From Spirochaetaceae bacterium (GTDB taxonomy: Bacteria; Spirochaetota; Spirochaetia; Treponematales; Breznakiellaceae), in NCBI GenBank assembly GCA_031265635.1, contig JAISCK010000061.1:1-33959 (forward strand): a stretch of DNA of 33,959 nt. The letters are read 5' to 3'. Shown here piece after piece: positions 22,662 through 24,638 of the stretch; within the stretch, counting starts at the first letter, position 1; the number at the start of each line of letters is the position of its first letter. The position numbers and the translations under genes were made by a program. The notes under the pieces were generated by a model. The model saw only the letters and a program-made list of their open reading frames with translations. It ran no database searches and was not told the DNA's origin.

Positions 22662-22916
22662 AAGTCTTCTGTTGATTTAATACTGTTTCCGGGGAAAAGT
22701 CAACGGAGGATTCCGGTATAGCAGGCGGGCGCATATAAAATTTAGTACGTGTACCGTCGGATCTTTACCCGGCTTAAAAGCGAATCCAAACCCCTTGCCG
22801 CCCTGAAAAACCGTATCCCCATCCGTATTGGCATTTCGGAGCCACGCCATTGACCCTTATCGTCCCCGGGGTGTACGCTCACAAAACCAGAATATATTTT
22901 TCAAGGAGGACACAGT
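22662..22916. promoter_or_regulatory. Divergent intergenic region, TPR gene / flavin reductase
   Basis: 255 bases with no gene. On the minus strand TTGACT (22698-22703) and TATTAA (22677-22682) could drive the TPR-mreB operon, but their spacing is only 15 bases. On the plus strand the last bases before the reductase hold AAGGAGGAC (a strong ribosome binding site) and an AT-rich ATATATTTTTC that may contain a -10. The middle part (22720-22870) is GC-mixed and shows nothing I can name. Confidence 0.35.
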
Positions 22917-24638
22917 ATGAAGAGATTCTTGTTACCCGGCATCGCGGCAGCGCTTGTTTTTAGCCTTGTTCTGGCCTGCGGTTCCACAGGTTCCGCCGCG
23001 GGCGGTATGACTCCCGGTACTTACCGGACAGAACAGCGGGGTTATGTAGACCAGATCAAGGTTGAAACCGTGGTAGACGGATCAAAAATTGTATCCGTGC
23101 GTATTACGGAAAACCACGAAACCAACGGCATCGGTTCCTTCGCCATACAGTGGCTGCCGGAACGTATAGTGCAGGCCCAATCGGTGGGAATTGATATAGT
23201 CAGCGGGGCGAGCTTTTCCAGCCGGGCCATTCTCGGCTCGGTAACCGAGGCTCTGCGGCAGGCCGGCGCCGATGTGGACAAATTTTCCCGTCCGCCGCCC
23301 AAACCTCCGGCAAGGGACCAGGAACTCTCGGTGGATGTTATCATAGTCGGCGCGGGAGGAGCGGGTTTAACCGCCGGAGTTGAGGCAAGAGTAAAGGGAA
23401 AAGATACCCTGATCATCGAAAAGATGGATATTCCCGGCGGAAACACCATACGTTCATCGGGGGGCTTTAACGTGGCGGGCAGTCCGGAACAGGTAGCCGC
23501 CCGCCGGGGCCGTTACAGTATTGAGGATTTTATCACCTATACCATGGAAGGGGGCCATAACCTCAACAACCGGGAACTTGTTACCTACATGATACAAAAT
23601 TCATCCGGGGTGGTAGACTGGCTCAAGACCCAGGGCATGAATCCCCAGATAGGAGAAACCTACGCCAGCTATACCGTGGACGGGGAAGCCAAGGGGCTGA
23701 TTCTGGACCTGCTCCGCCGCTATGAGTCCCAGGGGGGAAAGATCATGTACGGCGTAAGGGGTACGGATATTATCATGAATGGCGGCCGGGCCGCGGGTAT
23801 TGTGGCGGTAGACAAGCTGGGCGGAAAACTTACTATCCGCGCCAGGGCCGTGATTCTCGCTTCGGGAGGTTTTGGCGGCGATTTGGAAATGTGCGCCCGG
23901 CTGGATCCCAGCCTTGAGGGTTTTGTTACCGATAACAGCCTTGGCGCTACCGGAGACGGTATCAAGATGGCCGAGGCCATAGGCGCCGCCACCGTTGATA
24001 TGGAGCAGATACAGAGCCATCCTACAATACACCAGGCCAGTTCCACCATGCTTACCGAAGGGATACGGGGTTCGGGCGGTATTCTGATTAACACCGCGGG
24101 AAAGCGTTTTACCAACGAAAACACCTACCGTGATGTGGTCTCCGCTGCCATTTTGAGCCAGGATCAGGCCAAGGCCTGTATTCTCTTCAACAAAGAACTT
24201 ATGGATCACAATCCCAATGTACAGGGCTATTACGAGCAGGGACTGATTACCCCCTACAATACCCTGGACGATGTAGCCAGGTATATGACCGTGGACCCTG
24301 CGGTCTTAAAACAGACCGTAGCCACCTGGAATACCTATGTGGCAAATAAAAACGACCCCGAGTTTGCCAGCAGCTTTTCCTGGATACGGGATCTTTCCCA
24401 GGGGCCCTATTTTGCCCTTTGGGTCGCCCCAGGGATACATCATACCATGGGCGGCATAAAGATCAACGTGCGGACGGAGGTTCTTTCCGCCGGCGGTTCC
24501 ACCATTCCCGGTCTTTTTGCCTGCGGCGAAGTTACCGGAGGCGTCCACGGGGGTAACCGGGTCGGAGGAAACGCGATTCTGGATATACTGCTGTATGGCC
24601 GGGTAGCGGGAGAAAACGCCGCGGCCTATATACGCTAA
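22917..24638 (+). CDS. Lipoprotein FMN/FAD reductase, fumarate reductase type
   Basis: 573 residues. A signal peptide ends in lipobox LVLAC (Cys21), so it should be lipid-anchored outside the cytoplasm. An FMN-bind domain (about 33-122) has D93-I-V-S-G-A-S99, the site where ApbE-type transferases attach FMN; the acceptor here would be Ser rather than the usual Thr. The FAD domain starts with VDVIIVGAGGAGLTAG (about 139-153). By comparison with soluble fumarate reductase FccA, from memory, H368 (QSHPT), R405 (TYRDV), H508/H509 (IHHTMGG) and R548 (GNRVGG) are spaced like the four substrate and proton-donor residues. UrdA-type urocanate reductases have Tyr for the first. So fumarate or a similar unsaturated acid is the likely electron acceptor. 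There is no haem domain and no partner gene here. Confidence 0.88.
   Translation: MKRFLLPGIAAALVFSLVLACGSTGSAAGGMTPGTYRTEQRGYVDQIKVETVVDGSKIVSVRITENHETNGIGSFAIQWLPERIVQAQSVGIDIVSGASFSSRAILGSVTEALRQAGADVDKFSRPPPKPPARDQELSVDVIIVGAGGAGLTAGVEARVKGKDTLIIEKMDIPGGNTIRSSGGFNVAGSPEQVAARRGRYSIEDFITYTMEGGHNLNNRELVTYMIQNSSGVVDWLKTQGMNPQIGETYASYTVDGEAKGLILDLLRRYESQGGKIMYGVRGTDIIMNGGRAAGIVAVDKLGGKLTIRARAVILASGGFGGDLEMCARLDPSLEGFVTDNSLGATGDGIKMAEAIGAATVDMEQIQSHPTIHQASSTMLTEGIRGSGGILINTAGKRFTNENTYRDVVSAAILSQDQAKACILFNKELMDHNPNVQGYYEQGLITPYNTLDDVARYMTVDPAVLKQTVATWNTYVANKNDPEFASSFSWIRDLSQGPYFALWVAPGIHHTMGGIKINVRTEVLSAGGSTIPGLFACGEVTGGVHGGNRVGGNAILDILLYGRVAGENAAAYIR

Follow-up and report, generated by a model that had tools for sequence, protein, structure and literature searches.

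The gene at positions 22,917 to 24,638 of the analysed stretch of DNA (the window, 33,959 nucleotides long) codes for a protein of 573 amino acids that fuses an FMN_bind domain to a flavocytochrome c-type FAD domain and carries the complete set of fumarate residues of the Shewanella reductase FccA. It is probably a periplasm-facing lipoprotein reductase with an unsaturated dicarboxylate as electron sink, most likely fumarate, which would be reduced to succinate. In its assembly (1.98 Mb, 72% complete) the window makes up contig C25, and the close relatives of this genome are Spirochaetaceae MAGs. The style of the MAG names hints at a possible termite-gut origin. The gene alone is ordinary, and more interest lies in the array of paralogues to which it belongs.

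Gene, domains and flavinylation motif

The open reading frame is intact (Table 1). Divergent mre/TPR genes lie on one side and a convergent PAP2 gene on the other, and together with the hairpin past the stop codon these neighbours make the gene look like a single-gene (monocistronic) unit. Two sister genomes contain copies with 91–95% identity, and the active site is conserved in an Eubacteriales protein that is 55% identical, which rules out a chance occurrence. The neighbourhood of the gene is not conserved and differs between genome G002 and the window. At another locus (L037, BNUU01000006.1, 3476–11698), the orthologue is found on the same strand downstream of a GntR gene, the TRAP genes DctP-Q-M, a DHDPS-family gene, an HpcH/HpaI aldolase gene and a PfkB kinase gene.

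Table 1. Positions of the reductase gene and its features in the window
Feature	Position	Strand	Basis
573-aa lipoprotein FMN/FAD reductase, fumarate-reductase type (predicted)	22917..24638	+	translation, domain matches, TIGR01813, PDB search
Shine-Dalgarno AAGGAGG	22903..22909	+	sequence; 7 nt upstream of ATG
Signal peptide, Sec-type, ending in relaxed lipobox LVLA-C21	22917..22979	+	sequence; LVLGC/LVLAC in L034 and L037
FMN_bind domain, residues 42-113	23040..23255	+	profile match 7e-13
Flavinylation motif D93-I-V-S-G-A-S99; FMN predicted on Ser99	23193..23213	+	sequence; published motif (PMC12052999)
FAD_binding_2 / flavocytochrome c catalytic domain, residues 140-553	23334..24575	+	profile match 3e-78
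Shortened segment, about residues 247-260, at FccA RxHRPxGG stretch 243-251	23655..23696	+	alignment
H368 = FccA H365 (UrdA Tyr373)	24018..24020	+	alignment
T380-E381 = FccA T377-E378	24054..24059	+	alignment
R405 = FccA R402, catalytic proton donor	24129..24131	+	alignment
H508-H509 = FccA H504-H505	24438..24443	+	alignment
R548 = FccA R544	24558..24560	+	alignment
Terminator-like hairpin, 3' of stop codon	24696..24718	+	sequence

The preliminary description had called the product a lipoprotein that lacks a haem domain, and both statements were borne out, the former by the Sec-type signal with its relaxed lipobox and the latter by the absence of CxxCH from the translation, FMN_bind being present instead. 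FMN in place of haem is a well-known architecture. The fusion of FMN_bind and FAD_binding_2 is thus located in a protein predicted from its signal peptide to be exported, and with 392.8 bits it scores above the curated cut-off (285.45) of the flavo_cyto_c family TIGR01813.

The motif recognised by ApbE, D-x-x-[S/T]-G-A-[S/T], accepts Ser or Thr (PMC12052999, PMC8238504), although a Thr to Ser swap cut flavinylation by 10–55% in reported tests (PMC12052999). The reductase contains it as DIVSGAS, and apbE is found elsewhere in the genome, on contig C238. Ser99 had been pointed out as standing where most flavinylation sites have Thr. This is correct as a count, since the 27 FMN_bind domains recovered from the genome, the window's included, hold Thr in 15 cases, Ser in 11 (three as GVS) and a degenerate motif in one. 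Ser is canonical in the published motif, and with 11 of 27 domains sharing it, the idea that Ser99 is unusual was discarded.

Active site compared with FccA

A phmmer search against the PDB identified the FccA structures 1d4c and 1qjd as the best solved relatives (E ~1e-88). H368, R405, H508/H509 and R548 had earlier been placed on the FccA active site, with the reading made dependent on this placement, and a MAFFT alignment with FccA puts all of them there (Table 1). R384 and D406 are additionally paired with R381 and D403. The FccA-type set H, T, E, R, R, H, H, R is complete and is also whole in aligned relatives from Spirochaetota, Eubacteriales and Synergistaceae. In the tree, the protein groups with FccA and the HTERRHHR proteins with a support of 0.99. 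Because none of the substrate and catalytic residues of FccA is changed, fumarate is the likely substrate. Confidence in the predicted structure is low, with a mean pLDDT of 64.7 and values below 50 in the active-site segments, and the top PDB matches of the model in Foldseek, again FccA structures, confirm the fold only. A Synergistaceae relative from goat reticulum (L038, 5597–7837, + strand) has two flavinylation motifs, apparently in tandem FMN_bind domains, ahead of the FAD domain.

Between W235 and the next helix, the reductase falls short of FccA by about nine residues and has lost the clamp-side segment RxHRPxGG (243–251) of FccA proper. The loss is common to the relatives with 91%, 81% and 55% identity, whereas the segment is kept in 15 of 15 other aligned fumarate-set proteins, a sample that includes FccA and near-identical sister copies. 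Its absence from this clade could alter the substrate.

Electron supply and reductase paralogues

The reductase had also been described as an orphan, with the proposal to locate apbE and membrane donors elsewhere in the genome. The term is apt locally, where no electron-donor gene adjoins it among the scanned open reading frames of the window, but not for the genome, which holds apbE, an RNF operon, small FMN_bind proteins and at least 22 sister reductases. The apbE gene on C238 is the single copy in the assembly; it is cut by the contig end and is complete in sister genomes. The RNF operon on C174 has the order D-G-E-A-B, in which RnfA was recognised by eye in the translated frame, and RnfC and the start of RnfD are lost at the contig edge. 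Small FMN_bind lipoproteins adjoin reductases on C96 and C140, and the pairing on C96 recurs in two sister genomes.

A donor of the CymA/NrfH type was rejected, as PF03264 gave no match to such a quinol cytochrome in four genomes of the genus. As to menaquinol, which may also be a donor, late menaquinone genes are present, but MqnC was not found in four genus genomes. On C99 (L095, 1802–7218), mqnL (UbiD), mqnP and ubiX are directly followed by an SsuA-type ABC transporter, an order largely retained in sister genomes, and together with the lack of MqnC this makes salvage of a menaquinone precursor possible. A second, diverged rnf-like cluster on C150 (L104, 1818–5892) has RnfC and then an RnfD broken by an in-frame TAG, and the membrane proteins that follow RnfD match nothing in NCBIfam, nor was an FMN_bind domain detected in them. 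Because of the interrupted RnfD and the undetected FMN_bind, this cluster was set aside as a donor.

Given RNF and the small FMN_bind lipoproteins, the lack of a CymA/NrfH match and the failure to find MqnC, transfer from RNF to FMN is the preferred, hypothetical route. Electrons from ferredoxin or NADH would enter at the RNF complex (RnfG-FMN) or a different membrane donor and would reach, directly or via the small FMN_bind lipoproteins, the FMN that ApbE is predicted to attach to Ser99. From there they would pass to FAD N5 and as hydride onto the C=C bond, with R405 giving the proton. We infer a respiratory role as terminal reductase, in which energy would be conserved.

Profile matches in the genome number 29 for FMN_bind and 38 for FAD_binding_2, and at least 23 open reading frames fuse both domains, a count that includes the window gene and some frames cut at contig ends. 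In most sampled genomes of the order 0–16 FMN_bind matches are found, and this level is reached by just one other, G105, with 34 matches. G105 belongs to the same family (genus g37) and apparently represents a separate expansion. Paralogues (L073–L096) lie on contigs C40, C244, C145, C123, C157, C237, C215, C155, C254, C248, C96, C236, C6, C196, C119, C136, C23, C12, C122 and C90. Among the at least 22 further reductases the fumarate residues are altered or lost in most, and FMN_bind is C-terminal in four. According to the tree, two genes of the genome have the full fumarate set, the window gene and the C96 paralogue; a second group retains R402/HH/R544 with changed His/Thr/Glu positions, and a third is without most of the set. 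The C96 paralogue is far nearer to FccA (435 bits versus 305 for the window protein) and could be the principal fumarate reductase of the genome. The paralogue on C119 (L089, 1015–2991, − strand) has UrdA as its best PDB match and a Tyr at the position of UrdA Tyr373; the alignment shows no equivalent of Asp388, and it is not claimed as a urocanate reductase.

Sugar fermentation or acetogenesis is the usual view of this spirochaete group. In a genome of about 2 Mb, 72% complete, at least 23 flavin reductases with predicted export point to a wide use of organic electron acceptors, and the active-site classes among the paralogues yield testable substrate predictions.

Alternative readings and known systems

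A putative extracytoplasmic FMN/FAD reductase with the FccA site and no haem is supported. For the external unsaturated acid that had been proposed as the substrate, the choice narrows to unsaturated dicarboxylates, with fumarate as the first candidate. The lost 243–251 segment, the closer C96 paralogue, the lack of a linked donor and the weak structure model weigh against the fumarate reductase reading. The main rival, possible if rather doubtful, has the enzyme reduce another unsaturated dicarboxylate, such as mesaconate, itaconate or an aconitate-like acid; the lost segment would then reshape the pocket, and the C96 enzyme would serve fumarate. Such a reading draws on the confinement of the loss to the window clade, on the C96 enzyme combining an identical first shell with a far greater similarity to FccA, and on the MS495-87 orthologue, which lies behind co-directional genes for a TRAP transporter, two aldolase-family proteins and a PfkB kinase; however, nine of nine aligned first-shell residues equal those of FccA, and the neighbourhood varies between G002 and the window. 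Fumarate is still the most likely substrate judged by these residues. Tentatively, the window gene may stand in an FMN-linked clade that kept the fumarate first shell, lost the nearby segment and uses a different dicarboxylate, as part of an array of 23 or more reductases, the majority with changed or missing substrate residues, through which a gut-type genus of spirochaetes could respire numerous organic acids in the manner of Eggerthella-type human gut bacteria.

It is unlikely that the enzyme is an electron sink without energy conservation, disposing of surplus reductant or of an unsaturated acid that is toxic, and fed by free reduced flavin or partner cells instead of RNF. The unlinked donor and the missing CymA/NrfH-type cytochrome in the four genus genomes would fit, but the genome has RNF and small FMN_bind lipoproteins, and known relatives serve respiration (PMC8238504). 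A reductase for urocanate, methacrylate/acrylate or cinnamate-type acids is highly improbable. UrdA has the same architecture and itself carries covalent FMN, but His versus Tyr distinguishes fumarate reductases from UrdA (PMC7921117), and the window protein has His at the Tyr373 position and, at the proton-relay position, Glu381, which is missing in UrdA. Likewise, H368 and T380 stand where Trp/Val mark the methacrylate reductase Mrd (PMC4427408). Identity with UrdA (by H368, T380 and E381) and with Mrd (by H368 and T380) was thus rejected.

The fumarate reductase reading finds its closest counterpart in Shewanella FccA, which has the same catalytic domain with complete substrate and proton-relay residues. 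FccA possesses a tetrahaem domain and the segment 243–251, whereas the window protein has a lipoprotein FMN_bind domain and no such segment and, judged from its translation, is not a flavocytochrome. The extracytosolic FrdA of Listeria monocytogenes (FMN_bind and FAD) likewise has FMN_bind for haem, a likeness of architecture, and both FrdA and UrdA of Shewanella belong to the flavinylated relatives whose donors are encoded elsewhere in the genome (PMC8238504). The donor of FrdA is Gram-positive EET, whereas here RNF or another donor would take this part. UrdA (6t85) shares the FMN_bind and FAD architecture, R405/R548 and the His pair, and differs by Tyr373 and Asp388 in place of the fumarate-type His and T-E pair. 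FMN_bind fumarate-reductase-like enzymes comprise 3,070 proteins in 1,236 genomes (PMC8238504). By architecture, the window protein can be placed with them, as a further member of an already known enzyme kind. In an anaerobic spirochaete, it probably serves to discharge electrons outside the cytoplasm, onto fumarate or an acid like it. Little et al. (2024), cited in PMC13060105, reportedly described large sets of reductases in human gut bacteria. Many same-fold paralogues per genome, here seen in a genus of Spirochaetota, are likewise present in human gut bacteria such as Eggerthella lenta (PMC13060105).
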